Virus record (IMG/VR): IMGVR_UViG_3300017917_005055
Coordinates: 1 to 38,052 of that record
DNA length: 38,052 bases
Reading direction: 5' to 3' (one strand)
Source of the DNA: a virus
The position numbers were made by a program, and so were the translations under genes. The notes under the pieces were generated by a model that was given only the letters and a program-made list of their open reading frames with translations, made no database searches and was not told the DNA's origin. Within the stretch, counting starts at the first letter, position 1. Every line of letters starts with the position of its first letter. Of the stretch, positions 1-21,779 are shown piece after piece.

Positions 1-1466
1 CCAAACATGTCTCCGCCTCCTGGAGCTCCACCGGGTGCACCACCTGGTGCTTGTTCTTCGACAGTGATTGATTCGAGTTTGATATCTGCAATCTTGTCTC
101 TGATCTTACCTTTTTCAATTCTCTTGATTTCGTCGTCATTAAATTCCATAATGTTTTTACGGATCCATTCTTTGTCGACTAAACCTTCAGGCACTGCACC
201 TGCAATTTCAAATTTTGTTCTAATCAATTCTAGTTTTTGTTGTTGAGCAATGCTACTTGGATTTGAAAGCTTGAGTTCAAAGTCCAATAAATCTTCACTA
301 GTATAACCATGTGAATACAAATGTATCATTGCAATTTTGTTAAGTTCGGAAACAATTGTCTTTTGAATACGCTGAATGGTTCTACTAAATCTAATGTCTT
401 CTTGCGCCAATGTAGCTTTAGCACCTATCTCTTCATCATAGCCTAGATAAGCCTTTGGAACCTTAAGGGCAGAAAAAAGTTTCTTTTGAATGTATTCAAC
501 GTCTTCAATTGCTGAAGTATTTTGACCACCTGCCAATGTATCGATCTTTGTACCAGTATCACCACCACGAACAGGCAAGAAATAGTCTTCATCTACTGAT
601 AATGGATTATATCTTAAATCTACTTTTCCTGTTGTTTTATCTACGACTGCATTTCTCTTAAGAGCTGTCTGTGCTTGCTGTAAATAATCACCAACATTTT
701 CAGGAGGAATATTACCAACATCAATATAAAATACACGACGCTCAGGAGCACGAATAACACGATAAACCAACATCGCATCTTCAATCAAGATTAATTGACG
801 CCAGATACGACGAGCACCTTCTAGGACTGAAGAACCATAGGGTAGAAATGCGTCATTGCCTAATAAACGGAAGTGAGTAATTTGCCAATTTTCTAAAATT
901 CTATTGCCTTGAGTAATCCATCTAAATCGTACAGAGCCTGGATCTGTTGGATCAAAGCCTTCTTCACGTTCGATTTCTGCAATTGGAATAGGGAAAACAT
1001 TAATCACACCATAGTCAGGTGAAACGTCATTAAAAAGAAAAAAGTCACCATACTTGCAAAGATTACGTACCCACATAACCAGATTAAATTCTACGTTTAA
1101 TACATCATAGAATAAATTATCTAATATCTGTTTGATTTTCTTGTTCTCTGAGTAAATGTGGATAACATTTCCATCAACATCTGGGGAAACTGTTTCTTCT
1201 GCATAAATGTCAAGAGCACTACAAATTTCTGGAGTCGAGTCCATTTCACTAAAATCTGAATAACGAGCCATACGATCATAAGAACCATAAGCTGAAATTG
1301 TAGAATTATAAACATCGCTATGTGCTTTTCTAAATATGTCTAAACTTGAGGGACTACCAGGAGCCTTGTTTTGGAAAGCTTTTACTTTTCTTCTAACTGT
1401 AGGACCTGAACGGAACAGGTCGGTCAGTTTTTTAAATAAGCTTTCATTTTCTTTTTCTTTGGCCAT
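1..1466 (-). CDS. 20: Portal protein, T4 gp20-like (3' end cut by window edge)
   Basis: Portal vertex protein: it forms the dodecameric ring through which DNA enters and leaves the head and on which the terminase docks. 488 residues are visible and the reading frame is open to the left edge, so the C-terminus lies outside. The most telling stretch is at residues about 240-254, where APERRVFYIDVGNIP is almost identical to the hallmark of T4-like gp20. It is followed by DEDYFLPVRGG (about 292-302) and the VPKAYLGYDEE region (about 336-346), also typical of the family. The start is fixed because the codon just upstream of ATG 1466 is a stop. No strong ribosome binding site is seen. The visible end (about residues 472-485) is a low-complexity Gly/Ala/Pro tail with three APGG units. 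It follows terL in the same direction after a 66-base gap, the usual packaging-gene pairing. Confidence 0.95.
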   Translation of the reverse strand, partial: MAKEKENESLFKKLTDLFRSGPTVRRKVKAFQNKAPGSPSSLDIFRKAHSDVYNSTISAYGSYDRMARYSDFSEMDSTPEICSALDIYAEETVSPDVDGNVIHIYSENKKIKQILDNLFYDVLNVEFNLVMWVRNLCKYGDFFLFNDVSPDYGVINVFPIPIAEIEREEGFDPTDPGSVRFRWITQGNRILENWQITHFRLLGNDAFLPYGSSVLEGARRIWRQLILIEDAMLVYRVIRAPERRVFYIDVGNIPPENVGDYLQQAQTALKRNAVVDKTTGKVDLRYNPLSVDEDYFLPVRGGDTGTKIDTLAGGQNTSAIEDVEYIQKKLFSALKVPKAYLGYDEEIGAKATLAQEDIRFSRTIQRIQKTIVSELNKIAMIHLYSHGYTSEDLLDFELKLSNPSSIAQQQKLELIRTKFEIAGAVPEGLVDKEWIRKNIMEFNDDEIKRIEKGKIRDKIADIKLESITVEEQAPGGAPGGAPGGGDMF

Positions 1467-1532
1467 TTAAATATAACGCTCTTTTGCTTTTGAATTAAAT
1501 TATATGAAATACTATATATTTTAAAATTAAAT

Positions 1533-3164
1533 TTATCTAATGACCCAAGAAAAATCACCAATTGCCTTGTTTCTATTGTTCTGACCTGTGTCAATAATAC
1601 TGTCATTAGTCATGATAGGCAAGAAAGGATTAAATTGTTGTGTAAATTTTTGATTACCACCATACCAAGGACTAATAACTGTCTCATCTTGCTTTGTTGA
1701 ATTAACCTTCATACCTTTAATCATCTCATTCGCTAAATTAACATCAGCAGAAGAGATTTGACCACCAAATTTTTCTGTTACCCATAAACCTATAGCAAAA
1801 GACATAATTGCGTCATCATGATGTCCTTTCATCGCAGAAGGCTTATTTCCTGCCCAAACAAAAGTTTTAAGCTCTTCATAAAATCTCACAGAATTAATTT
1901 CAATTCTTTGATTTCTTACTGCTTCTTCCATGTTTGAAAGTATTTTTGCCCGACTGTCTTTTTGTGTGTTAAATCCACCTTTTGCAATAATAGAATTCTT
2001 ATCAAGAGAATAAGTGAATTCATATTTCAGCCTTTCGTCATCAAAATGTATATTGAAATATTTTAAATCACAGAGACGAGTTAAAACCATGTAACCATAA
2101 GTGTTATTTTCAGGACAAATTATTGCCTTATTGTATCTTCGACCCCAATCATAAAGCAATTGAGCCATATTGTCAGGAGCTAATTTGCCTTTGAATTCAA
2201 CGTCGACAGTTCTTGTGTCCGTATTAAAGATATGAAAAACACTATTGTCTCCACTGTCACCTCTAGCAATATCGGCAGAAATGATATAACGATGCCCTTC
2301 TCTAGGATATCTCCAAACCCATACATCTTGATTAGGTCCTGTTCTTTCGATAGGAGCTCTAACCATCATTTTCACGTATTCGATTTGTTCATTGGCAAGA
2401 AAAGTTTCACCAGAAGCAGAAAAGTCGCACAACAATTCTTGAGCGATCTGTTTGTCAGACATGTTCTTTGTTTCTTTTTCAAACCAAGTTTGATCTCTTT
2501 CTGGATGCACCTGCCAAGGTAGTTTTATTGCATTAAACTCATTTGTCTTTTGTTCTGCACCCATCCAAAGATCATAATATTGGCCACCAACACCATTAGG
2601 GGTTGATAAAATAATTGCACGACCACCAGTTGACAGTGTAGGATAAAGACCGGTCCAGATTTCATCAAAATTTCTAATAAAAGCGGCTTCATCAATAATC
2701 AAAAGAGACAAAGCTTCAGAACGACCTGCGTCTTCCGATGTAGGAATAGCCTTAATGGATGAACCATTTTCAAAAACGACCTGTTGCTTATTATTTGCAG
2801 AGATTTTCGAAAGAACAAGCCAAGGAGGTAAATTTGCAATTGCAACCTTGACTTTCTTCACAAAGTTTTGTGCAACCGCCATTTTTGTAGCAATAACAAG
2901 AATGTTCTTTTGCTTGTAAAAAAGAGCTAGCCAAATAGAATATGCAGCAGTAATCGTAGATATACCTAATTGTCTACTCTTAAGAATAATATTGAAACGA
3001 TGATCATTAAAGTCTTTAATACAATCATCCTGAAATGGATACGTATCAAATGGCAACAAACCTTTTGTAGGGTGTTCAATCTTTAGATATTTGTTAATAA
3101 AATAAACAGGATCTTTGCCACATTTAATGACTTCACTGATCTGTTGTTGTTTTGTCGAAGACAT
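1533..3164 (-). CDS. terL: Terminase large subunit, T4 gp17-like
   Basis: ATP-driven DNA packaging motor with a headful-type nuclease, 543 residues (T4 gp17 is 610). The N-terminal ATPase shows a Walker A motif SRQLGIST (63-70), a Walker B motif LLIIDEA with D158/E159, and a coupling motif LSTPNG (187-191 region) followed by the YYDLW seen in gp17 relatives. The C-terminal RNase H-fold nuclease shows its acidic residues at ISADIARGDSGDN (D298), CPENN (E352) and GHHDDAIMS (D450/D451). All key residues appear intact, so it should be active. It starts 2 bases after the stop of the 123-residue gene upstream and is probably translationally coupled to it. It precedes the portal gene. Confidence 0.96.
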   Translation of the reverse strand: MSSTKQQQISEVIKCGKDPVYFINKYLKIEHPTKGLLPFDTYPFQDDCIKDFNDHRFNIILKSRQLGISTITAAYSIWLALFYKQKNILVIATKMAVAQNFVKKVKVAIANLPPWLVLSKISANNKQQVVFENGSSIKAIPTSEDAGRSEALSLLIIDEAAFIRNFDEIWTGLYPTLSTGGRAIILSTPNGVGGQYYDLWMGAEQKTNEFNAIKLPWQVHPERDQTWFEKETKNMSDKQIAQELLCDFSASGETFLANEQIEYVKMMVRAPIERTGPNQDVWVWRYPREGHRYIISADIARGDSGDNSVFHIFNTDTRTVDVEFKGKLAPDNMAQLLYDWGRRYNKAIICPENNTYGYMVLTRLCDLKYFNIHFDDERLKYEFTYSLDKNSIIAKGGFNTQKDSRAKILSNMEEAVRNQRIEINSVRFYEELKTFVWAGNKPSAMKGHHDDAIMSFAIGLWVTEKFGGQISSADVNLANEMIKGMKVNSTKQDETVISPWYGGNQKFTQQFNPFLPIMTNDSIIDTGQNNRNKAIGDFSWVIR

Positions 3165-3166
3165 TT

Positions 3167-3538
3167 TTAATCCGCAATTTGAAATTGTATGTTCTGACTA
3201 TACTTAATTATTCTTCTTTGTGAATAAGGATTAGTTGTAATTGTTTCAAATAAATCATTTTCGCCTACTTTTGTCATCTTCAAAGACTTTCCTGTAGCAT
3301 CTTTGAAACCGGCCTTGATCAATTTTACTCTATCTCCAATCAACTTTGTTCCTTCTTCTCTACACATAGGTGTCTGAGCATGCAAACCTTGTTCTTTTGA
3401 AAAATTGATAATGCTTTGATAGCTAATTGTCAAAATATCACCCATTAATTTAGCAGTTACTTTTCTTGTTCCGTCACTTGTATTGTGAAATACATTATCT
3501 ATTAAAGATCCAAATGCATTTGAAGTTTGAATATTCAT
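3167..3538 (-). CDS. Hypothetical protein in the small-terminase position
   Basis: 123 residues, not recognised by sequence. An AAGGA ribosome binding site 7 bases before ATG 3538 supports expression and the chosen start. It lies directly upstream of terL with a 2-base gap, a place where many phages carry the small terminase subunit. However, I see no clear helix-turn-helix and no long coiled coil of the gp16 type, so TerS is only a positional guess. The protein is mixed polar with a basic middle (GDRVKLIKAGFKDATGKSLK, about 68-87) and no signal peptide or membrane segment. A palindromic, promoter-like sequence lies in the gap upstream (3559-3578). Confidence 0.75.
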   Translation of the reverse strand: MNIQTSNAFGSLIDNVFHNTSDGTRKVTAKLMGDILTISYQSIINFSKEQGLHAQTPMCREEGTKLIGDRVKLIKAGFKDATGKSLKMTKVGENDLFETITTNPYSQRRIIKYSQNIQFQIAD

Positions 3539-3558
3539 TTATAATTCCTTCATTAGTC

Positions 3559-3578
3559 TAATTATAAATTTATAATTA
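3559..3578. repeat. 20-base perfect AT palindrome upstream of the packaging genes
   Basis: A fully self-complementary 20-base A/T-only sequence centred at 3568/3569. It fills most of the gap between the zinc-ribbon gene and the 123-residue gene. It could act as a small cruciform, an operator-like site or part of a promoter. Because the area is so AT-rich, chance cannot be excluded. Confidence 0.5.
3567..3574 (-). promoter_or_regulatory. Candidate T4-type late promoter (TATAAATT)
   Basis: Read on the minus strand this is TATAAATT, 7 of 8 bases of the T4 late promoter core TATAAATA. It lies 29 bases before ATG 3538, leaving room for a transcription start and the AAGGA ribosome binding site. 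If real it would drive the 123-residue gene, terL and portal. It sits inside a palindrome in AT-rich DNA, so it is a weak call from one motif. Confidence 0.3.
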
Positions 3579-3587
3579 TCAAACTTT

Positions 3588-3818
3588 TCATTTAAAATTT
3601 AATTTATAGTAATTATCCTGTGCACAATCCGAACACATTTTATATTTCTTATATGTTTCTATGTCTTCGATGTTTCTAAACAAACTGGAGCATTCTGGAC
3701 AATCTACAGGAATACTTTCATCATTGACAGGCCTGACAAATCTAATGTCATTTGTTTCATATTCTTCAGTGTTTTTATCAATTGCCTTCCAATTTTCTTT
3801 TTTATTCAAATCTAACAT
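3588..3818 (-). CDS. Small zinc-ribbon-like protein
   Basis: 76 residues from ATG 3818. A longer reading from a TTG at 3842 is possible, but ATG 3818 has an excellent AAAGGA site 5 bases upstream, so I prefer the shorter form. It overlaps the 3' end of the SbcD-SbcC fusion gene by 17 bases. The C-terminal half holds two Cys pairs (CPEC about 40-43 and CSDC about 62-65) separated by a short acidic and basic spacer, as in a treble-clef or zinc-ribbon knuckle. Metal binding is inferred. The target could be DNA, RNA or protein, and I do not recognise a named family. Small Cys4 proteins are common in T4-like phages. Confidence 0.75.
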   Translation of the reverse strand: MLDLNKKENWKAIDKNTEEYETNDIRFVRPVNDESIPVDCPECSSLFRNIEDIETYKKYKMCSDCAQDNYYKLNFK

Positions 3819-6800
3819 ACGAGTCCTTTCCGTTTGCTTCAATACTCAAAGTGTCTTCAACAATGTCCTTAATTGCATCAACGTGAGAGATAATAAGAAT
3901 AGTTTTAAAGTATTTCTTAAATCCTTCTAGTAATCTTACGCATGCTTCGATGTTTGTATCATCTAAAGCTCCAAAACCTTCATCAATAATAAAAATATTT
4001 GACTTAGGTAAATTACTAATGTTAATCAGGCCAACCCTAATCGCCAAAGAAGCAATCATTTTTTCCATACCTGAACCACATTCTACTATTCTTCTGTTGT
4101 CTCCGCCATAGTTGATGTAGACTTCGAGGTCATCATCAAGAATTTCAATGTCAAGTGTAAAATCAGAGACACCATGCAAAATATCTTTGACTTCTTTGTT
4201 CAAGGATGGAAGCATTTCCTTGATCAACATTGAAGGTATACCTTTCTTTGAGAGGCATCCGATGAATGACTCATAAGATTTCCAATCTTCAATCATCTTT
4301 TGATACTTTTCTTCTTCTTCGATGTAGTTTTGTATCATTTTCTCTAAATAAGAGTTTCTTCCTTTGATTGAGATCAAACCTACATTTCTTTGATCCTTGT
4401 CTCTACTGACTTTGTTTAATGAATTTTTTAGATCATTAATGATTTCTTCGTCATCTTCATTCGTAATTGACTTAAGTTGTTTAAGTTTTTGATTTTGCTT
4501 CAATAGTTTATCTAGACAGTCATCGATCTTACTTTGAGACATACTGATCTTCTGATTGAGATTTTCGATCTTAAGACGGTTTTCTTTGTCTCTCATTGAA
4601 AATTCTTCATATTTCTTGATTTTTTCATCAAATTGTTCTTTTTCTAACTCTTGACATGTTCTGTATAAATCTTTGCTACTTTCTTCTAGTTTTGCATAAT
4701 TTTCTTCACTTTGCTTCAAGTTGTTAAAATCTTCATGTGCGTTCTTAATAAACCTACAAGTAGGAAAACTGTCTCCGCAAGGAACACTACTTAACAATTG
4801 AGCAGCTTCTTTCTTCTTTTTGAGTTCTTTTTTAGTATTTTCCAATTGGTTCAAAATAATTGTCAATTGCGACTTAAGGTTCAAAAATCTCTCTTTTTCC
4901 TTCTTAAGTTCAGTAAGATTAAATTGTTCTTCAATGTTCTTAAATTTTTCAATTTTTCTAGAAAGTTCAGAAATTTCATTTTTATTCTTCTCGATGTCAT
5001 TTTTTTCTCTATTTGAAGTATATTCTAAGGTTTCTATCTCTTTTTCGACTTCGTGTAATTCTTTGAGCTCGAGATTTTTATTTTTCATTTTTTCTAAATT
5101 TAGTCTAATTTCGATCTCTTCTTTGCTAAGATCATTAATTTTTTCTTCAAGATTTTTTATTGACATTTCATTGTCAAGTATCTCGTTTTGAGCTTCTTGT
5201 TTCAAAGAGAGCCAATTTTTCTCTTGGCTTTGCTTAAGCCTGATTTTTATCTCATTTGAGCTTTCTTTTGCAATTTTGCTCAATTCTTCAAAAATATCAA
5301 GGTTCATGAACTTTGAGAGATAATGTTTTCTAGATCCTGACTTTTCATTGATAAATGAATTAATATTGCCCTGTGAAGCAAATGAAGTCATTAAGAACTC
5401 ATCGGATGTTCCAATCAACTCTCTAAGTACTTTTTCTGTTTCTCGTCTTTGCTCGTCACTTTCATTGACAATATTACCATCTTCAGCAATTCTTTTCAAA
5501 GAAAGGTCTGTGGGTGAATAAAATTCATTCATTTTCTTTTTAATTGGAATTTTCTTTGTAGATCTCTCGACCTGATATTTTTGATTATTTACATCAATAA
5601 TTGCTTTTGTTTCACAATTATCTTTTCTTGTGTTGATAATGTGAATATTTTTCATGCTTCCTCTGTCTGTTCCATTAAATAGATTATACATCAATGTTCC
5701 AGGAATAGATGACTTGCCAGCTGCGTTTTTGCCAAAAATACCAATAATTCCATTTAGATTGTCAAAATTGATAAAATTGTCTTCTCCGTAACTAAAAGTG
5801 TTACTGAACTCTAATGATTTAATTGCCCAATTTGTAGGCTTTCTGTTTTGATCTTCAGGTAAATTGTCCAAAGTTTTTTCAAAAAGCTTGCTAATTTTTA
5901 AAAGTTGATCTTCTGTCACATTATTTCCAAAATAATTTTGCAACATCATTTTTCTAGCATCTTCGTTCCAAATATTGAAATTTTTTCTTTTTTCTTCAAT
6001 AATTTGAATACTTTGATCAATTCCATCATTTTTGAAAATAATTTCTTTTGCAGATTTTTTTTCCTTTAAAAACGATGTAATCAATTTTATTTCACCTTGA
6101 TTTAGAGCAGACTCAGATTTAATTCTAAATCTTGCTCCAATAGGATATTGATCCAACTCTTTAATTGTGTCATCTGTGTTTCCTTTCCATTCACATGTGA
6201 TGTAAACATGAGGATTATCTAATTTGACAAATTCAGAGCTATAATTCCATTTATTTTCAATGTTCCAGACTAGAAATCCTTTTTCTAATTCTTCTCCATA
6301 GTTTTGTTGAATTGTGGAACCAGGATATGCAATTCTTTTCTCCATGTCAAGATATTGCTTCTTATGAATGTCTCCTAGGAAACCAAAGTCAAATTCTTTA
6401 AAAAAATCTAAATTGACTTCACCACTTAATTCCCAATCAGAGTCTGTTAAACTACCTAAGACTGAACCGTGAAATGTCGCAATATTGATTTCATCCTGTA
6501 CAGGCTTAACATCTTTCCATCCTTCTTCATCAAAACAACTAAAGACACACCAATTAAATCCTTTGATCCCAGTAGGATAAGTTCCACTCTTTTTGTATAA
6601 GAAAAGTCTTGGATTATTAAGAGCTTCAACAATAGGGGTAATTGCATCAAGTCTGTTTTGATTTAAAATTAAACCGTCATGATTTCCCAGGATTACATGG
6701 GTTGGTGCCAAATTAGCAAGATTAGTAAACCACCAATTAAGAATATTGATTAACTCAGGCGATATCCCCTGTGTCTTAGAATGAACAATATCACCACCTA

Positions 6801-6927
6801 CAAAGATTAAATCAGGTTTAATTTCTCTAACTTTATCAAAAAATGAATTAAAAACTAAACGATATTCATCATGTCTTTTTAGACCTCTAAAATGAATATC
6901 AGAAATATGGACACACTTAAAACTCAT
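3802..6927 (-). CDS. Fused SbcD(Mre11)-SbcC(Rad50) recombination nuclease, gp47-gp46 in one chain
   Basis: 1041 residues combining two proteins that are separate in T4 and bacteria. Residues 1 to about 330 are an Mre11/SbcD metallophosphoesterase: DIH (10-12), GGD (44-46), GNHD (81-84), FHGS (H153) and GDIHKKQ (185-191) supply the two-metal site. Residues about 368-1041 are a Rad50/SbcC ABC-type ATPase: Walker A GKNAAGKSS (399-407), Q-loop FASQGN (516-521), long coiled coils (about 550-715 and 735-900), signature-like CGSGMEKM (950-957), Walker B IFIIDEG (D982/E983), D-loop GALDD and switch H1015. The coiled-coil apex carries C717-x6-C724 in place of the usual CxxC zinc hook. The role is double-strand end resection and recombination-dependent replication. 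AAGGA lies 8 bases before ATG 6927. Confidence 0.93.
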   Translation of the reverse strand: MSFKCVHISDIHFRGLKRHDEYRLVFNSFFDKVREIKPDLIFVGGDIVHSKTQGISPELINILNWWFTNLANLAPTHVILGNHDGLILNQNRLDAITPIVEALNNPRLFLYKKSGTYPTGIKGFNWCVFSCFDEEGWKDVKPVQDEINIATFHGSVLGSLTDSDWELSGEVNLDFFKEFDFGFLGDIHKKQYLDMEKRIAYPGSTIQQNYGEELEKGFLVWNIENKWNYSSEFVKLDNPHVYITCEWKGNTDDTIKELDQYPIGARFRIKSESALNQGEIKLITSFLKEKKSAKEIIFKNDGIDQSIQIIEEKRKNFNIWNEDARKMMLQNYFGNNVTEDQLLKISKLFEKTLDNLPEDQNRKPTNWAIKSLEFSNTFSYGEDNFINFDNLNGIIGIFGKNAAGKSSIPGTLMYNLFNGTDRGSMKNIHIINTRKDNCETKAIIDVNNQKYQVERSTKKIPIKKKMNEFYSPTDLSLKRIAEDGNIVNESDEQRRETEKVLRELIGTSDEFLMTSFASQGNINSFINEKSGSRKHYLSKFMNLDIFEELSKIAKESSNEIKIRLKQSQEKNWLSLKQEAQNEILDNEMSIKNLEEKINDLSKEEIEIRLNLEKMKNKNLELKELHEVEKEIETLEYTSNREKNDIEKNKNEISELSRKIEKFKNIEEQFNLTELKKEKERFLNLKSQLTIILNQLENTKKELKKKKEAAQLLSSVPCGDSFPTCRFIKNAHEDFNNLKQSEENYAKLEESSKDLYRTCQELEKEQFDEKIKKYEEFSMRDKENRLKIENLNQKISMSQSKIDDCLDKLLKQNQKLKQLKSITNEDDEEIINDLKNSLNKVSRDKDQRNVGLISIKGRNSYLEKMIQNYIEEEEKYQKMIEDWKSYESFIGCLSKKGIPSMLIKEMLPSLNKEVKDILHGVSDFTLDIEILDDDLEVYINYGGDNRRIVECGSGMEKMIASLAIRVGLINISNLPKSNIFIIDEGFGALDDTNIEACVRLLEGFKKYFKTILIISHVDAIKDIVEDTLSIEANGKDSYVRFE

Positions 6928-6951: not shown

Positions 6952-7950
6952 CTAGATTAAAGATATTTTATTTAATAGTAATGAACTTGCATCAAGTTTA
7001 CAACTGTTTTGATATAAATTGTCAAACATCTCATGAGACATATCACCAACATCTTTCTCGTATGAAGTGTCCATTAGACTGACGTCGATATTATATTTCA
7101 TAAGATCATCTGCAATCTTTAATGTTTTACTAATTGCATCTTTGTCCAATGCAAGAATGACAGGAGTTCCATTTTTAACAATTTTTTTAAAAAGAGCACT
7201 ATCTTTTGGTAAAGAACTACCTAAAAGACATGTTGCATTATCATTTGTCTTAAGTAAATCGAGTGGTCCTTCAACAATAGTCAATGGTTTTTTCCAATTT
7301 ATGTTTAAATCATTAAAAATTATCTTTACACGACTAGCATTACAATTAATGTATTTATACATGTCCGTGGTAGGAGCATCAATTCTTCTGCAAGTATAAA
7401 AATTAATAATACCATTTTCATCAAAAGAAGGCAATATCAATGATCTTCTGAAATTAGAATGATTGCTTACTCCTAATCTTAGAAGCCACATTTTATGATC
7501 ATCACAACCTCTATTTATTGCATAATTGCAGACATCTCGTATATCTGGATCCATTGCATCTAGATTTAATGCACAAAACATAAACCCTTCAGGTATTTCA
7601 ACTTTTTCTAATTCTTCTGGCTTTTCTTCATTATCATCAAGTTGATTTAAAATGTCTAACCATTCATCTTTGATTTGATTTGAGGAGTCAAGAAAGTAAT
7701 TTTTGGACTCAGAATAATACTTTTCACTTAATTTTTTAACAAGATAAGGAATACTTCTACCTTTTGTGTCACAAACAAAGCAATGATATAAGTTCTTTTC
7801 TACATTCACAATCATTTTAAGTTTGTTTTTATTGCTATTTTCACAATAAGGACACCAAATCGCAATTTCAGGACAATCTTTAGAGTTTTTATAGTTTAAA
7901 ACGATTTTCTTAAGAAAGTTTAATTTTTCACTTGTCGTTTTTGTATTCAT
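6952..7950 (-). CDS. 61: DNA primase, T4 gp61-like
   Basis: Makes short RNA primers for lagging-strand synthesis. It has 332 residues, close to the 342 of T4 gp61. An N-terminal zinc-binding region has C33-x2-C36 and HC57-x2-C60, the arrangement seen in CHC2-type primases. The catalytic TOPRIM core shows TIVEGPLDLL (E227) and LALDKDA (D269, D271), with a further KDVGDMS acidic segment (299-305). The start ATG overlaps the 3' end of the RuvC-like gene by 23 bases, which suggests coupled translation. The partner helicase (gp41 type) is not in this window. A helicase-less TOPRIM protein of this length with an intact zinc motif fits primase better than the other TOPRIM families. Confidence 0.88.
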   Translation of the reverse strand: MNTKTTSEKLNFLKKIVLNYKNSKDCPEIAIWCPYCENSNKNKLKMIVNVEKNLYHCFVCDTKGRSIPYLVKKLSEKYYSESKNYFLDSSNQIKDEWLDILNQLDDNEEKPEELEKVEIPEGFMFCALNLDAMDPDIRDVCNYAINRGCDDHKMWLLRLGVSNHSNFRRSLILPSFDENGIINFYTCRRIDAPTTDMYKYINCNASRVKIIFNDLNINWKKPLTIVEGPLDLLKTNDNATCLLGSSLPKDSALFKKIVKNGTPVILALDKDAISKTLKIADDLMKYNIDVSLMDTSYEKDVGDMSHEMFDNLYQNSCKLDASSLLLNKISLI

Positions 7951-8488
7951 TTATTACAGCTGCCTTGCCAATGACATAAGCGTCTGCCATATCATAACAA
8001 GCTGGTTCGAATTTTACATCACCTTTGTTCTTGCCTCTGACAATATTCTTGACAGGCCATGAAATGTCTTCTTCGTTTGATTTTACCCAATTTAGTATTT
8101 GCTCCTTGGTATCTATTTCACTGGATTTATCTATCTTTATCCCCAGTGATTTGCGAGCCGATGAGACATTATAATATATAGGCTCAATACCAAATTCCTC
8201 ATATGATATCTGGGATACAACTCCGTTAAACCTCGACAAGATTGACAAAACCTGTGCAGAAGAAAAACCTTTTCGAAACGACTGAGCTGACTCTTCAATT
8301 GAAATACACTCAATTTTAAAGTTTTTGTCTTTTAATTCTTTCATACTTGATCTAACAAAATCTGCTTTTTTAAATAATGAGTCAATTTTTCGAAGGTCAA
8401 TGTAATTTAAATAAACACATTTTAAATTATCAAATACCGAAACACCAATAATATTCGTTGATATATCCAAGCCCATGCAAATTGTCAT
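7928..8488 (-). CDS. RuvC-like Holliday junction resolvase
   Basis: 186 residues with an RNase H-like fold typical of RuvC-type crossover junction endonucleases. MGLDISTNIIGVSV (5-18) gives the first catalytic Asp (D8) on strand 1. ISIEES (63-67) supplies the Glu, and YDMADAYVIG (165-174) the C-terminal Asp pair (D166/D169). It would cut four-way junctions made during recombination-dependent replication so that branched DNA can be packaged, the job done in T4 by the unrelated endonuclease VII (gp49). It starts 4 bases after the stop of the 986-residue virion gene with no clear ribosome binding site, so translation probably depends on coupling. It overlaps the primase gene at its 3' end. A different RNase H-fold phage nuclease is a less likely alternative. 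Confidence 0.85.
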   Translation of the reverse strand: MTICMGLDISTNIIGVSVFDNLKCVYLNYIDLRKIDSLFKKADFVRSSMKELKDKNFKIECISIEESAQSFRKGFSSAQVLSILSRFNGVVSQISYEEFGIEPIYYNVSSARKSLGIKIDKSSEIDTKEQILNWVKSNEEDISWPVKNIVRGKNKGDVKFEPACYDMADAYVIGKAAVINEYKNDK

Positions 8489-13664: not shown

Positions 13665-15446
13665 CTAGTTTATCTTAAAATTAAAAACAATATTTTTTGT
13701 TTGAAGATCAGTTAATCTGACAAGATTCAAATGAAAATCTGAATTTGAAAAGTCGGAAACTGTAATTTCTTGATTTGATTGTGTCTTTATTTTACTGCAA
13801 TCAGGTGTAAAATATATTTTTATTTTTTCTTTATTCTTAAAAAAAGGAGTAAAATTAAATAATAAATTATCATTTTCAAATAACATACTTTTTCTCTGTA
13901 TATAAAGATTAGGATATTGTCTAGGTGCCCCTGAAAGACTTATATTGTCGACAATCATTTTATTGTATATTATTGAATACCTTACTGCAATCTGATTGGA
14001 ATAGTTAGAAACCATTCCATGTGCATCAATTGAACAAACAGTGTATATATTTAAATCGTTTAAGTTATCTGTTTCATCTTCGAAATAATTAACAATTTCT
14101 TTTCCTGACTTTGAGACTTCGATTAAAGATTCATCAATTTTGTCGGAAAAAAGATCAAAATTTCGAAATTTACTTGGGTCTTTTTTCATGAAAACTTTTA
14201 TTAATTTATACGGTTCATCAAGATTTTTTCGTCTATACACTTGATAACCTATTACATCGCCTTCTGGATTAGGAGGGAAATCCCATTCAAGTAATGTCTT
14301 TTTTGAATTATATAAATATTTTGCTCTTAATGCTCCTGGTGGTTCAGGAGGATTATATTCTGCAGATTTTATAAAATCACAATGATAAGAATTTTGACAC
14401 ATAAGATAATAGTATCTTTCAATTGAATCATCATCATTATTTTTGCACAAAGATAAATAAAAAACAGGAATTAATTCATATGAATAAAAATTTCCATAAC
14501 TAGTGTTAATATCAAAAAACACTGTTTTGTTTTGCATGTTTTCTATGTCTATATAAAGAAAATGATTTGAAGAATTTAATATTAGACTTCCATCTCTTCT
14601 TTTTATGTGTTTTTTAATTAAAAAACCTACAAATAGACTTCCGTTTTTTGAATTAATCTCTTGAAGAGTTTCTTCCGTCAGAGGACCGTGATAAAAATAT
14701 TTAATTTTTTCTAAAATAGAAGATCTATCAGTGTTGTCTGATATTGCACTTCCAGGATTGTCAGGCCTTATAAATTGATCCAAGTTGCCTTCAATGTTTA
14801 ATGAATTAGATATTAATTCTAGATTGACACGATCAGATATTTCATTTTCATCTAATGATTTAAAAAATACAAACATGTTTTCTTCATTTGAGAAATTACT
14901 TTTTGATTTATTCATAAAAATATCTTGAATGTATTTATTTGATACAGAATATTGTTTAAAATTATTATCCGTATCAAATCTGCTTTGGTCTCGTATATTA
15001 TATGAATTTAGTATTCTATCTTGGCTTTTTTTACTAGTTTTAACAATATATGAATTGATTTTATCTTCAAGATAAGATTGCTGATTGAAAAAATCAATGT
15101 CTGGCGTCGATGTATCTGTGTCACTCAATGTAAAAGACGTAAAAGACCGTAGCAAATTTTTTCCTTGAAGGTCTTTTAAAAAGCCTTTAATTTCGTCTTG
15201 CATGCTCGTATTTCGATTTAAATAAATTGGATTTTTTAATTTATCAATTTCGGTTTGTTTGAATAGTACTTCAATTCGAATTGAATTATAATTTTTTTGA
15301 TCAAACAAAATTTGAATTTCATTGTCTAGATTGTCTTGAAAATTATCGATTTCTTCATCTTGTTCAGAATAATATCCTGACATGTATTCTGTCTTTACTG
15401 AAAAAAGAGGTAAATTATAACTTGTGATATCAAATAAATTATTCAT
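13665..15446 (-). CDS. Virion protein with fibronectin type III domain
   Basis: 593 residues. A fibronectin type III domain lies at about 366-490: PPEPPGALRAKYL, TLLEWDFPPNPEG, GYQVYRRKNLDEPY, then YTVCSIDAHGMVSNYSNQIAVRY. The order Pro-rich start, Trp strand, YxVYRR strand and a Tyr-containing strand before Ser-x-x-Ser is characteristic. Such domains are common in phage tail and baseplate proteins, where they act as spacers or surface contacts. The N-terminal 360 residues and the last 100 residues are not recognised. The N-terminus is acidic (EQDEEIDNFQDNLDNE, about 28-43). There is no signal peptide. The ribosome binding site before ATG 15446 is weak. It follows the 2094-residue gene in the same direction. 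Confidence 0.8.
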   Translation of the reverse strand: MNNLFDITSYNLPLFSVKTEYMSGYYSEQDEEIDNFQDNLDNEIQILFDQKNYNSIRIEVLFKQTEIDKLKNPIYLNRNTSMQDEIKGFLKDLQGKNLLRSFTSFTLSDTDTSTPDIDFFNQQSYLEDKINSYIVKTSKKSQDRILNSYNIRDQSRFDTDNNFKQYSVSNKYIQDIFMNKSKSNFSNEENMFVFFKSLDENEISDRVNLELISNSLNIEGNLDQFIRPDNPGSAISDNTDRSSILEKIKYFYHGPLTEETLQEINSKNGSLFVGFLIKKHIKRRDGSLILNSSNHFLYIDIENMQNKTVFFDINTSYGNFYSYELIPVFYLSLCKNNDDDSIERYYYLMCQNSYHCDFIKSAEYNPPEPPGALRAKYLYNSKKTLLEWDFPPNPEGDVIGYQVYRRKNLDEPYKLIKVFMKKDPSKFRNFDLFSDKIDESLIEVSKSGKEIVNYFEDETDNLNDLNIYTVCSIDAHGMVSNYSNQIAVRYSIIYNKMIVDNISLSGAPRQYPNLYIQRKSMLFENDNLLFNFTPFFKNKEKIKIYFTPDCSKIKTQSNQEITVSDFSNSDFHLNLVRLTDLQTKNIVFNFKIN

Positions 15447-15494: not shown

Positions 15495-18400
15495 TTAATT
15501 TTCTAATAAATCCAAACTTACTCTGTATGAAACATTTTTTGGAATATAACTTTGCTGAGGTTGAGTTGAATTATCTTTTACTCGATAACTTTTAATTTCT
15601 ACATTTTGTCGACTATATATTGCACTATTAATTCTATTATGAATCGTACCAATTTCATCAGACATGTTACTTATAAGTTCAAATGATAATCCTGGGTATG
15701 AATTAAGAGCAGGCATTGTAACATTTCCTCTCGTCAAAGTTGTAACAATGAAATCTTGCGGTTTAATAGAAACATTTAATATTCTAGAAAAATTTAAGTC
15801 AGAAAAGTCTGATAAGTCTGGAATAATAGCTGTTGTGAAATTATGCATAAATTTTATAAAAGCATTCAAATTGTGATTTGTTGACATGCTTGCTATTTTA
15901 AATTCAAAACCTTTATAAGTTATATTATTTTCAAAATTTCCTTGACCATTTGCAGAAAATACATTCGTTAGTTCTTCATTTGTAAAACCTAGATCTTCTA
16001 TGTTTGAAGAGTTATATATCTGTGTAACAAAAAGATCATAAATATTACTTAAAATATAACAGCCTTGAAGAAACTTTTCTTCTTCTTTTTTAATACTAAA
16101 ATTTTTTTTGCCTTCAAAACCTGTCAAAGATTTTAAAATTTTCTCTAGTCTAAAACTATTCATCTGATTGAAAATTGATCTTTGTATCATTTCTCTTAAT
16201 GCAATCGCGCATGTTTGGATGTCTTCTATCCCTAATAGTTTTAATCTAGAAATATAACTTTCATTTAATTCATTATATCTTCTTTCAATTAAATTATTAA
16301 TGTCTGATGTTAAATCTGGTTCAATATAGACACTAGCGAGAGATAAGCCATTACTATTGACTAAAGAAACTGATTGTATATTGTTGCTAATATTAGGTCG
16401 ACCAGCAGGACTCGGAGAAGCTGGAACAGATATTATATAATTAAACAATAATTTTCTATCAATAGATCCTGAATTTATTATAGAAACGTCAGAAGAAGAA
16501 AAATAATCCACTAGTGGAATATTGATAGTATCATTTACGTAACTTAAATTTGAACCGGTTAGATATTGTCGATTATTTTGATCTCTAATTACAAAAATAT
16601 CATCAACAGGGTTATTGATTGATGTATCAAATTCGAATATTTTCTTTTCCCATATCAAGTCCGGATAATCATGATCAATCATTTCAACAGTCAATAATAT
16701 TATGTCATTTTTTTTGATCTCGACTTCTTTTTCAATGCCGACAGTTAGTATCGTTGAAAGATTTAAATTATTAGAAGAATTAGAATATGAATTATTAATA
16801 AATCTAGATACTGGAAAATTTATACTGTTTTCGTTAGGATAGACATATTTTTCAATATAAAAATCTTTTAAATAGCATTTAAAGAATTCATCTTTTAAAG
16901 AAGGAACAACAGAGTTTATATCTCTGTTTTCTTTTTCATATTTGCTTTTTATGTTTTTGACTATTTTTGTTTTTAAAAATTGCTTTATGTATATATCTTT
17001 TAACTCAAAATTATTATTTTTTAATTTAAAACTTGTAAAACCTGTTATATTCTTAATTTCATTGACTGCATCTTTGCTAGAAAATGAATAATAAGCACTT
17101 GAATGTTTGTTATTTCGATATGTTTGAATATAGTCGTATATTTTTTGAATATCATTTCCTATTCCATTGTCATATGAATTAAAATATTTTATAATTTCCA
17201 TATTCATCGCATAAGAAAAATCATTCATAATTAATCCTCTAAGTACGTGATTATACCAGTTATGTTGAATGTCGACATATGATTTTTTTTGAATACTCAA
17301 AGAATCCATATACTTTTTAAAATCTTTTTTTACTGATGCGTTTTGACTATCTTGATATAAAATATTGTTTTGATTGAATTTTGAATAGTTTAAAAAGCTT
17401 GAAGAAGATTCATTAATTAATTCACATCCAGATATAACTTCTGAGCCTATATTATCAATACTGTATTCTTCTAGATTATACGCCCAGTTTTTTTCATATG
17501 ATTTCGAAACAATTTGAGAAAAAATATCATTTAAAGAAATATAATTATCAATATTAGTATTTAAAATCAAGCGAGATTTAGATGATTTCATAACAATAGA
17601 AAATATTTCAAACAATAACTTAAAATTTCTGTTATAAGAAAAATAATCAGTGATATTATTTAATCTATCGTTAACAAAATCTAGATTTGAATTAATTTTA
17701 GTTTCATTATCTTGCCCAATAGCAGGATTTTTAAATAGATTTCCAAAAGTATACGAAGGCCCATCCGCTCGATCAGTAAACCATGTTTGGCTAGACATAC
17801 TAAGCTCATACAAATAATCAAAAAATATACAATTCGAATCATTAATAAAACTCATTATTTTTAAATCATTATTTAACATTTTTCGATCTATATTTCCATC
17901 AATAATATGAAAAAAACTTGTGTTTTGTATTGTGGCAAAACTTTCAAAGAAATTTTGTGATTTGATAGAATGTAAATTAAAAATGTCAAAGACGTAATGA
18001 AATTTTGAATGAAATTCACTATTTGCAAGTAGATAAATCATAATCTTTTTTAGATTAATGTCACTTATTTTAAAAATATTTTTTAAAGCATAAAAAAGCT
18101 TTACATGAGAAGGTTTGCTTTTGATAGAATTGACAAATTGCAAATGAAAAGTTCCTTCTTCTGCACAAAAACGTACTTCTGAGTCGTCTAATGAATTTTT
18201 AATATTAAAACTTTTATATTGTTCGTCATTAATAAAATCTTTATACAGATTATAAAAATTTCTAACATTTTCTAGATTATCAACAAATTTACTAACTTTT
18301 TCATCTTCGTTATCGATAAAGTTTCTTGTCAATGAGTCACTAGAACCTTTTGAAAAAACGCCTGACTCGAACAATCTATTACAAACTGCATTGTAACCTT

Positions 18401-21400
18401 GAACTTCAAAATACATTTTTAAAAATATTTCATTGCATATCTTAAGAGTTGAATCGATTAATTTTTTTAAATGATCTTCGTTTAAAAAATTAATGCTTAC
18501 TAAGGCCCTAATATAATCAATATTAAACATTTCAAACATGATATTGTCTAAAAAGTTGTTAAAACTGTTGACCGGACTGTCAAAAAAACTAGTTTCTACA
18601 GAAGCAACATTTAAAATATTTTTTTCTTGAATTATTGAGTCTTGCTCATTGATAATTGTGCTTAAAGACTCAGGAAATAATAGACTTGTATATATGTCAT
18701 CTGCTAATACTGTACGATTAATGTCTCGTCTTATTGTGTTTCTTTGAGAATCGAATGTTTCGAAATATTCTTTTATGTATGATTTAAGCTCTGTAAAAAC
18801 ACTAGGATAATCAGATTCATGAGTTATAATAAAACTAAATTTATTGTTATATTTTTCCATTTTTATTCTTGGTTTAAAAAGATTGATCTTTTTTTTGTTA
18901 CTTGAATAATAGTCAAATATTCCTGAGTTAAAAACGTTCTTAATTGAAATTTTTTGCTTGACTGCGTATCTTTCACCTGCCAAGATGTCTTTTGAATTAA
19001 ATGAAAAATAAAAAGGAGATCTATTGTTTTCATTAATATTTGAAGAATTCGAGAATTCTTCAATTGAGTCGACAATGCTATTTAATTTTTTATATCTAAA
19101 AGACTTTTTTTGATGATATGTAGAAAAAAGAAAGTGATAGAATAGACCATTTTTTTCATATAGGTCATTTGAGTTTTCATAAGGGTCATATTGGTCATAT
19201 TTTGCATTGCTTAAATTTTCACCAAACAAATAAAAAGGATGAATACTTGATAAATATTCAATATTGTCTTTTATGTTTTCAAAAATAGTAAGTCTTTCTG
19301 TAGATATATTTTCGTCTTGATTTTGATTTCTTTTGAAAGAATGTATGATTTTTTTCGCAATAGATTTATTAATAATTTCTCTAAATACAGATTTATTCGA
19401 GTCTGTTAATCCTTTAGAAAATTTATTATAAAAACCTAATAAAGTTGCAGTTTCTGATATTTTTGCTCTTTTCGAAAAATTAGTGTTATGATCATTGACG
19501 TTTAAATTACCATCAAAAAATTTTTTGCAATAATTTGTTATAAATTCAAATAAAGAACTAGAAGAAGAAAAATGTTTGAGTTGATCTTTATCTATTTTGG
19601 CCGAAAAAACATTGTTTAAATAATTATTTTTATTAAAAATCTGATTTGTTATTTGCAAATTGTCAGAATCTAAATCGATAAATTTTTCATTTACATTAAC
19701 GTTTGTATACTCTTTTTTCTCCAGAAATGTCATGTTTTTTTCTATTAAATTAAAATCATGATTTTCTCCTAGGAAAATATAATCTTTTTTAATTGCATCA
19801 AAAGTATATTCGTTTTTATCAACTAGAAAATCATTATCATTAATTGTTGCATTGTTTTCTTCTTTGAAGACACTGTCTTCATTTAAAAAAATGTTTTTAA
19901 ACTTTAAATTTTGATATTTTTTTATTTCTTTTACTATGTAATCAGCTTTTTTTCTAGTTCTTAAAATTGAATTTTTAAAATCATTTTCATCTTCAAAATA
20001 AGAAACATTATGAATTCCTGTTTTTCCGGAAAATATAATTGGTTTTTTTCTATATTTTATATTTGATTGAACTGAAGCATATGTTTCTGTCTGTATGTCT
20101 ACAGTTCTTCTACTTTGACCTGTCGCATTAATGCTACCTACATTTGTCGGTGCGTTAATATTTATAGTTCTAGAAGGGTTAACATTAATATTTTCATTTA
20201 ATGCAATACTGCTAATGCCGCCCAAATTAAAACCAGGAGAACCAAAAGCATTATTATTTCGAATAACATCTGCATTGACTCCAGTAAGACGTTCTGCCTC
20301 TGCAAAAGTACCTGGAATAACAATATCTTTTGATAATAATAATTCATCTTTATAGATTTCAAGTACGTGCATTGTGTCATTATTAATACATGAAGAAATT
20401 AATTCTATTAAATTCAAAGAATGTATTTTCATTTTTTCTTTAAAGGAAGAAGTAGAAAATTGATCGCTATTAATTAAAGGTTTGGTAACATTCACGTCGT
20501 CTTCAATCATATTACCTTGCAGATAAGAAGTATCATAAACACTTGAAAAAAGATTGAATTTATTTGTTTGTGTCACGCTTTCAGCAAACGGAAATCGATT
20601 TTCTTTTTGTGTATTTCCTTCCAAAAAAACTTTTGAAACTGCTGTAAAACTATTTTCATTTCTACAATTTAAAAGATTATGAATCTTCGAACGTTCGAAG
20701 TTGAAATTAAAGAAATTATCATTATTAATATTTATTTGTTTTTCAAGGTATGATAGAAAATAAGTATTAGCATTTAAGCCTTTCTTGAAAGAATTAATTT
20801 TAAAATCATCAAGTTCTTCACTTTGATAAATTTCATTCTGGCCATCCTCGACTAAATATTTTAAAGGCAATATTTCATTCATTTGAACAAAAGAAAAATT
20901 TGTAACTTGTTGAATATTTAACTTGTTTAATTGAATCAATTTTACAGGATATAATCCATAATACAGAGAATTATTTGACATATGATCTTCTTGATCAATT
21001 AAATTAATCATAGATTGAGCAAGAAAAGATAAAGACAGAGGATTTTTTCTAAAGTTTTTTATCTTTGCATTTAGATCTAATTCATAAGGAAAAGACATAT
21101 AATTTTTAAAAAATTCATTTATCTTTGAATACATTGCATCATCTTGATTAATACTTAAAATATTTCGTAGTCTTGCTTTTTTCGAATCTAAAAGAGCCCG
21201 CCTTTCTTCTTTGACTAACGTGTGTGTTTCATCTAAATTATCTATAAGATACCTGCCAATATATATAAACCCATCAGCTAATTTCCTGTCAGTCGAACTT
21301 ATCAATGCAGTTCGAAATTTGTGATTAAACAAAAAATGTCCAGATATATAATCTTCTATTTGATCAAATGTTTGATTTCTGCTTTGAGAACCGGTATCAG

Positions 21401-21779
21401 AATAAAAGCGTTGTGTCATTAATAATAATTGAGGCAAGTCGGTATTACCTTGATCAAATGAAAAACGTTTTAAATGATCTTTTTCTAATTCTAAAGAAGA
21501 AATTATTTTTTCTGTGCTTTTAAATAGATTTTGAGAAAGATCTGCATATGCAATAATCGTATCATTAAAAAAACCTAAATGGTTACTGTTAATCTTATTT
21601 AAAAATTCTAAATTTTTATTATATTGACCTTCATGAAGTACTTCTTTTTGAAATTTTAGAATTTCACCATCATTTGAATTTGTTTTCAAAACATGAAGTA
21701 AACTAGACTTGATATTTCTTTTATTATATTTTCCGTTTAATTCGTTAATTTTTTGAATTGTTAAAGAACTTATAGACAT
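15495..21779 (-). CDS. Giant uncharacterised virion protein, 2094 residues
   Basis: The largest gene in the window, with no family I can name. It is rich in Asn, Ser, Lys, Ile and Phe, largely polar, without membrane helices or a signal peptide. This argues against a tape measure protein, which is usually helical with hydrophobic segments. A low-complexity Gly/Asn/Ala stretch (about 500-555: GSPGFNLGGISS, then NINAPTNVGSINATGQ) looks like a flexible linker between an N-terminal part and the rest. The end is beta-like (NVSYRVSLDLLEN) and faintly recalls the VRL endings of the 986- and 432-residue proteins. It sits between the 889- and 593-residue genes and is probably a tail or baseplate appendage component. 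The ribosome binding site is weak. The leader includes one arm of an 18-base inverted repeat. Confidence 0.8.
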   Translation of the reverse strand: MSISSLTIQKINELNGKYNKRNIKSSLLHVLKTNSNDGEILKFQKEVLHEGQYNKNLEFLNKINSNHLGFFNDTIIAYADLSQNLFKSTEKIISSLELEKDHLKRFSFDQGNTDLPQLLLMTQRFYSDTGSQSRNQTFDQIEDYISGHFLFNHKFRTALISSTDRKLADGFIYIGRYLIDNLDETHTLVKEERRALLDSKKARLRNILSINQDDAMYSKINEFFKNYMSFPYELDLNAKIKNFRKNPLSLSFLAQSMINLIDQEDHMSNNSLYYGLYPVKLIQLNKLNIQQVTNFSFVQMNEILPLKYLVEDGQNEIYQSEELDDFKINSFKKGLNANTYFLSYLEKQININNDNFFNFNFERSKIHNLLNCRNENSFTAVSKVFLEGNTQKENRFPFAESVTQTNKFNLFSSVYDTSYLQGNMIEDDVNVTKPLINSDQFSTSSFKEKMKIHSLNLIELISSCINNDTMHVLEIYKDELLLSKDIVIPGTFAEAERLTGVNADVIRNNNAFGSPGFNLGGISSIALNENINVNPSRTININAPTNVGSINATGQSRRTVDIQTETYASVQSNIKYRKKPIIFSGKTGIHNVSYFEDENDFKNSILRTRKKADYIVKEIKKYQNLKFKNIFLNEDSVFKEENNATINDNDFLVDKNEYTFDAIKKDYIFLGENHDFNLIEKNMTFLEKKEYTNVNVNEKFIDLDSDNLQITNQIFNKNNYLNNVFSAKIDKDQLKHFSSSSSLFEFITNYCKKFFDGNLNVNDHNTNFSKRAKISETATLLGFYNKFSKGLTDSNKSVFREIINKSIAKKIIHSFKRNQNQDENISTERLTIFENIKDNIEYLSSIHPFYLFGENLSNAKYDQYDPYENSNDLYEKNGLFYHFLFSTYHQKKSFRYKKLNSIVDSIEEFSNSSNINENNRSPFYFSFNSKDILAGERYAVKQKISIKNVFNSGIFDYYSSNKKKINLFKPRIKMEKYNNKFSFIITHESDYPSVFTELKSYIKEYFETFDSQRNTIRRDINRTVLADDIYTSLLFPESLSTIINEQDSIIQEKNILNVASVETSFFDSPVNSFNNFLDNIMFEMFNIDYIRALVSINFLNEDHLKKLIDSTLKICNEIFLKMYFEVQGYNAVCNRLFESGVFSKGSSDSLTRNFIDNEDEKVSKFVDNLENVRNFYNLYKDFINDEQYKSFNIKNSLDDSEVRFCAEEGTFHLQFVNSIKSKPSHVKLFYALKNIFKISDINLKKIMIYLLANSEFHSKFHYVFDIFNLHSIKSQNFFESFATIQNTSFFHIIDGNIDRKMLNNDLKIMSFINDSNCIFFDYLYELSMSSQTWFTDRADGPSYTFGNLFKNPAIGQDNETKINSNLDFVNDRLNNITDYFSYNRNFKLLFEIFSIVMKSSKSRLILNTNIDNYISLNDIFSQIVSKSYEKNWAYNLEEYSIDNIGSEVISGCELINESSSSFLNYSKFNQNNILYQDSQNASVKKDFKKYMDSLSIQKKSYVDIQHNWYNHVLRGLIMNDFSYAMNMEIIKYFNSYDNGIGNDIQKIYDYIQTYRNNKHSSAYYSFSSKDAVNEIKNITGFTSFKLKNNNFELKDIYIKQFLKTKIVKNIKSKYEKENRDINSVVPSLKDEFFKCYLKDFYIEKYVYPNENSINFPVSRFINNSYSNSSNNLNLSTILTVGIEKEVEIKKNDIILLTVEMIDHDYPDLIWEKKIFEFDTSINNPVDDIFVIRDQNNRQYLTGSNLSYVNDTINIPLVDYFSSSDVSIINSGSIDRKLLFNYIISVPASPSPAGRPNISNNIQSVSLVNSNGLSLASVYIEPDLTSDINNLIERRYNELNESYISRLKLLGIEDIQTCAIALREMIQRSIFNQMNSFRLEKILKSLTGFEGKKNFSIKKEEEKFLQGCYILSNIYDLFVTQIYNSSNIEDLGFTNEELTNVFSANGQGNFENNITYKGFEFKIASMSTNHNLNAFIKFMHNFTTAIIPDLSDFSDLNFSRILNVSIKPQDFIVTTLTRGNVTMPALNSYPGLSFELISNMSDEIGTIHNRINSAIYSRQNVEIKSYRVKDNSTQPQQSYIPKNVSYRVSLDLLEN

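Follow-up and report, generated by a model that had tools for sequence, protein, structure and literature searches.

The standard Mre11-Rad50 (SbcD-SbcC) complex is a 2:2 assembly. Proteins in which the two partners are fused in a single chain were described by Yoshida et al (2011; PMC3175470) from Mimivirus, where the gene is R555, and from a Bacillus phage, bacteria, plasmids and eukaryotes. R555-like genes were inferred in that study to be plentiful among the viruses of aquatic habitats, many of them probably phages with primase neighbours, and a fusion was argued to be able to mimic the normal complex as the C-terminus of SbcD is about 28 Å from the N-terminus of SbcC. In R555 the third aspartate of the DxH..GDxxD..GNHD motifs is a histidine and the equivalent of His206 is an aspartate. 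The hook, zinc and cysteines go unmentioned in the same paper. The canonical Rad50 hook pairs two chains, and a functional hook is replaceable by another dimeriser, the SMC hinge (PMC6969161).

The window analysed here, 38,052 bases long, is itself a virus record in IMG/VR, and is a fragment. On its minus strand ORF calling and translation give a single frame with an ATG start, in which SbcD and SbcC are made as one polypeptide (Table 1). A first-pass annotation had proposed that this frame holds both sets of active-site motifs, and the ORF, Pfam and PHROGs results and the motif positions bear this out. The nuclease motifs are all found, as DIH (D10/H12), GGD (D46), GNHD (81–84), FHGS (H153) and GDIHKKQ (185–191). 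The ABC-ATPase head is likewise complete, with Walker A, Q-loop, signature, Walker B and H-loop, though the signature reads SGMEK in place of the usual SGGE, and a long coiled coil separates the two lobes. The match to PHROG_77 (SbcC) covers residues 276–1039 (7.8e-49), and both the PDB profile and Foldseek searches return SbcC, Rad50, Mre11 and SbcD. The AlphaFold2 monomer model has a mean pLDDT of 85, falling to only about 70 at the apex.

Table 1. Features of the fused gene, of its neighbours in the window and of two loci in which the enzyme is split; the L099 and L162 rows refer to those loci.
Feature	Position	Strand	Evidence or remark
Fused SbcD-SbcC (Mre11-Rad50) gene, 1041 aa	3802..6927	-	ORF, Pfam, PHROGs, PDB profile
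Calcineurin-like phosphoesterase (nuclease) domain, residues 4–189	6361..6918	-	Pfam PF00149 Metallophos, 1.7e-11; motifs
GDIH, residues 185–188, last metal-ligand motif; Asp replaces His of canonical Mre11 GHxH	6364..6375	-	
Predicted helix-loop-helix, residues 322–354, where the Mre11 Rad50-binding motif sits	5866..5964	-	AlphaFold2 model
Rad50 N-lobe, residues 366–543	5299..5832	-	Model; PDB profile match
Walker A GKNAAGKS, residues 399–406 (G399–S406)	5710..5733	-	Alignment, DNA-level check
Ascending coiled-coil arm, residues 544–714	4786..5298	-	Model
Apex loop VPCGDSFPTC, residues 715–724, C-x6-C hook	4756..4785	-	Alignment, model, DNA-level check
Descending coiled-coil arm, residues 725–895	4243..4755	-	Model
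Rad50 C-lobe, residues 897–1041	3805..4239	-	Model; PDB profile match
Walker B IFIIDE, D982/E983	3979..3996	-	Alignment, DNA-level check
DNA primase (CHC2 zinc finger; PHROG_47), adjoining the fused gene on its upstream side	6952..7950	-	Pfam, PHROGs; 182/275 loci
RuvC-like Holliday junction resolvase, PHROG_159	7928..8488	-	PHROGs; 132/275 loci
Terminase large subunit (TerL), T4 type	1533..3164	-	Pfam, PHROGs; 197/275 loci
Portal protein, PHROG_213, runs off window edge	3..1466	-	PHROGs
L099 split ORFs	3831–4484 and 1249–3834		4-base overlap
L162 split ORFs	1456–2103 and 2100–4718		4-base overlap

As in Mimivirus R555, the nuclease comes first and the ATPase second in one chain, and the window protein shares the R555 changes as they were described (PMC3175470), GDxxD being altered to GDxxH (GDIVH) and GHxH to GDxH (GDIH). 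This likeness is drawn from the published description, and the hook was compared with those of other clades. At about 1041 residues the window protein is shorter than R555 (1351 aa). Between the two halves the model predicts helices at residues 322–333 and 339–354 and then an 11-residue linker (355–365), matching the helix-loop-helix segment and short linker of the R555 type. As this arrangement fits the argument made in 2011 (PMC3175470), the normal Mre11-Rad50 geometry could be kept in the fusion.

The first-pass annotation had pointed to residues 330–370 as the place where a frame break might be hidden. None was found; the stretch is the predicted helix-loop-helix and linker, and the frame is likewise unbroken in L002, a relative on another IMG/VR contig that is 95% identical (a second, L001, is 71% identical). 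A protein scan of IMG/VR gave 40 relatives, and those spanning the gene are single unbroken fused frames. The view that an error of assembly or sequencing joined two genes draws some credit from the Listeria phages: LMTA-57 has the pair fused and A511 has it as two genes, so that small changes can join or separate them. It is nevertheless contradicted by the recurrence of the same fused frame in dozens of other viral contigs at 30–95% identity with the linker region conserved, and we ruled it out as vanishingly improbable. In the Listeria pair itself, LMTA-57 (L043:3917–6946) has one SbcD-SbcC frame and in A511 (L044:3896–6926) 94 bp separate two genes, a difference that could be one of sequencing.

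Taken as a novelty, the fusion does not stand. It is common in viruses, a profile scan having confirmed at least 590 relatives in IMG/VR, and Mre11/Rad50 fusions were published in 2011 (PMC3175470). The closest viral models in Foldseek are DNA-repair proteins of the giant viruses Tupanvirus, Harvfovirus and Yasminevirus; Tenacibaculum phages pT24 and PTm1 and LMTA-57 also match. Given the 2011 paper, these giant-virus and phage matches and the LMTA-57 fusion, neither the fusion nor its occurrence in phages is new. The idea in the first-pass annotation that a fixed 1:1 enzyme could alter regulation is weak, since the standard complex is already 2:2, and since a fusion, given the distance between the termini noted above, can mimic it (PMC3175470).

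Many related loci keep the gene order of the window, with the primase and RuvC-like genes upstream of the fused gene and the TerL and portal genes downstream. The TerL is nearest to those of Microcystis phage Mel-JY01 (44%) and a 484-kb uncultured phage. With contigs of up to 322 kb among the relatives, the window probably comes from a large tailed phage of the T4 type. A small ORF at 3588–3842 on the minus strand, whose start overlaps the fused gene at its 3′ end, contains a CPEC and a CSDC pair and is zinc-ribbon-like. Very large ORFs occupy 8493–35810 of the minus strand, the largest being of 2094 aa (15495–21779); those at 13665–15446 and 15495–35810 have no PHROGs match, and several have no close counterpart in the flanks of the relatives. 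Neither the Rfam scan nor the tRNA scan gave a hit in the window. In the genome collection the best matches (L242–L246) are marine MAG contigs, but these are probably phage contigs binned with their host and a cellular origin was set aside. The only plasmid match is confined to a short part of the C-lobe of the ATPase. A WOR-3 MAG recorded as a chromosome (CP070664; L248 and L249) contains two distant partial copies of the fused gene, covering residues 3–617 and 544–1030.

Among the described phages the nearest in GenBank is Mel-JY01 (clade II), which has a full-length fused protein in the same order (33% identity) but a CxxC hook (KCKHC; YDPKCKFC is an example from its clade). The 735-kb phage LR756501 (clade III) is also fused, in the same order and at full length, and has a CxxC hook as well (ICVTC, with CPSC in relatives). 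Both clades form groups separate from the window clade in the tree, with long-branch warnings on the deep branches. LMTA-57 and the Tenacibaculum phage pT24 are fused in one frame like the window protein, but are distant in sequence and have CxxC hooks (CPTC and CHKC). T4 gp46/gp47, A511 and Vibrio phage D146 have the same domains and, by analogy, likely the same recombination and resection job, though unlike the window protein they have two genes, a CPTC hook and shorter arms. The first-pass annotation was right that SbcC and SbcD are separate genes in T4, and E. coli likewise has two. The E. coli SbcCD and cellular Mre11-Rad50 proteins match the window protein in fold and motif set, while E. 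coli SbcCD differs in its separate genes, GDxxD and GHxH active site and CPLC hook.

The absence of CxxC from the apex, with C717-x6-C724 in its place, was also noted in the first pass. It stood up to inspection at the DNA level, where C717 is TGC at 4777–4779 and C724 is TGT at 4756–4758, and is typical of the whole clade, for which the motif is VPCGDxFPTCxFI. Set against the CXXC zinc hook, two cysteines are found at the apical turn but the C-x2-C spacing is not. In the model the ascending helix ends at 714, the loop runs from 715 to 724 and the descending helix starts at 725, which puts C717 close to the beginning of a loop between antiparallel helices and C724 at its last residue.

Counts from hook-pattern searches are biased and were not used as evidence of frequency; the census was restricted to loci found by patterns outside the hook, 67 of which cover the apex. 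Of these, 59 have C-x6-C, six CxCxxHxPxC, two C-x3-C-x14-C and none CxxC. Some of the 67 are near-duplicates; the three sets of loci from which they were drawn have 25, 5 and 14 distinct hook sequences. The eight variant loci retain both anchor cysteines and add further Cys or His residues. As the hook is conserved in loci selected independently of it, a chance origin was ruled out. C717 and C724 are also invariant in an alignment of 67 sequences, part of which were chosen by hook pattern, and L712, P716, C717, G718, P722, C724 and I727 are the sole conserved positions aligned between residues 546 and 896. Within those limits no stretch other than the hook motif is conserved in a non-redundant set of 81 relatives, which includes hook-selected members, and CxxC is absent within 40 residues of the hook in all 81. 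A tblastn search with the hook peptide alone found no match in the phage collection, and no report of a C-x6-C hook was found in the open-licence papers searched. When the Mel-JY01 clade is aligned by the descending helix (FI.DA with FV.DA) the upstream cysteines of the two clades nearly coincide and a conserved asparagine falls about at the place of C724, which suggests that the second cysteine was relocated. It has probably moved within the loop.

Two variant apices were seen. An expanded loop with a third cysteine, VPCTSPC-x14-CKFI, is present in L003 and L004, and PCxCxxHxPxC, with four possible metal ligands, in L014, L023, L031, L182, L194, L200 and L376–L378. In the tree, carriers of the CxCxxHxPxC apex fall into three lineages of the heads, namely L014, L182, and L194 with L200. 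The heads of L014 are 69% identical to those of L037 against 57% for L182, and the proximal arm 45% against 22%, while its apex is 73% identical to that of L182 and 41% to that of L037. Since the peak of sliding identity (about 80%) is confined to the apex and runs against the head relationships, these comparisons suggest that the apex was swapped between lineages as a segment of about 60 residues; convergence instead of exchange is a possible explanation of the shared apex.

It seems likely, from the motifs, the model and the analogy with T4, that the window encodes a single-chain Mre11-Rad50 nuclease of a T4-type phage, belonging to the R555-like group, with a role in resection and with metal-dependent pairing at the apex. 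Two copies would pair through their nuclease domains and ATP-bound heads, as in the cellular 2:2 complex, and the enzyme, to judge by its neighbours, would open and resect DNA ends for recombination-dependent replication as T4 gp46/47 does. On balance, the apex cysteines of the two subunits would share a metal ion, which would be held by a 10-residue loop with one cysteine near its start and one at its end instead of by a tight CxxC turn.

The cysteines could instead act within one chain, as a disulfide or metal clasp, the dimer then being held by the nuclease domains and heads alone. C717 and C724 do lie at the start and end of a single loop in the model, and the C-x-C-x2-H-x3-C variants would provide four ligands per chain, a full metal site without a partner. 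We consider this rather unlikely, as each chain in the main clade carries just two cysteines and, with the canonical hook pairing chains and a functional hook being exchangeable for an SMC hinge (PMC6969161), the loss of apical pairing would be a larger change. More improbable again is that another phage protein, perhaps the four-cysteine product of the ORF at 3588–3842, docks at the apex, with pairing being indirect. Conservation of L712, P716, G718, P722 and I727 is greater than a plain CxxC turn would need, and the small CPEC/CSDC ORF downstream is matched in 78 of 275 related loci; in most loci, however, it is missing or unrecognised, while the hook is near universal.

A broader account may be offered tentatively, and we would not rate it as probable: that a widespread aquatic phage clade replaced the CxxC hook, conserved elsewhere, with another apical metal or dimer device (C-x6-C, C-x-C-x2-H-x3-C or C-x3-C-x14-C), that the apex was exchanged between lineages as a short module, and that in one sub-branch the Mre11 nuclease domain came to be put together from two separately translated chains. 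Two ORFs take the place of the single gene in at least 13 contigs (L064, L066, L099, L108, L162, L230, L341, L355–L360 and L362, some of these loci being one contig fetched twice). The split lies inside the phosphoesterase domain, between GDIH (about 188) and YPGS (about 201), and new conserved tails are found on both sides of the break. Chain A, of about 215–220 aa, has an added tail such as REVELEIDEADLSNHPGAEV, and chain B, of about 860–870 aa, a start such as MSKRIRIRTKKPWIGYPG. An intron was ruled out in L064, L066, L099, L108 and L162 because the gap is too short, and also by the ORF overlap in L099 and L162 and the extra conserved sequence on both halves; a split intein was ruled out by size. 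L130, which has many frameshifts, was left out.

The four split members in the tree form one group (SH-aLRT 93) nested within fused members. The tree was a quick search with long outgroup branches and long-branch warnings on its deep joins, and was relied on for this nesting and for the hook groups, not for deep order. Judged by sequence, the sub-branch arose when an enzyme that was already fused broke at a new site, not at the ancestral SbcD/SbcC boundary. A fused protein holding the insertion of the split forms unbroken is found at L079:1973–5185 and is plausibly an intermediate towards them. No SbcD split within its nuclease was found in the open-licence papers searched.

What seems new here, judged against the open-licence papers searched, is the C-x6-C hook across the clade, the fusion itself having been known since 2011. 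The clade, in which the enzyme is kept while the hook ligands are shifted, spaced further apart and added to, offers a natural comparison set for what a hook needs, be it spacing, ligand number or pairing alone. The split sub-branch, if it is as it appears, would supply an Mre11 nuclease made naturally of two chains, of use in studying mechanism and as a split reporter.
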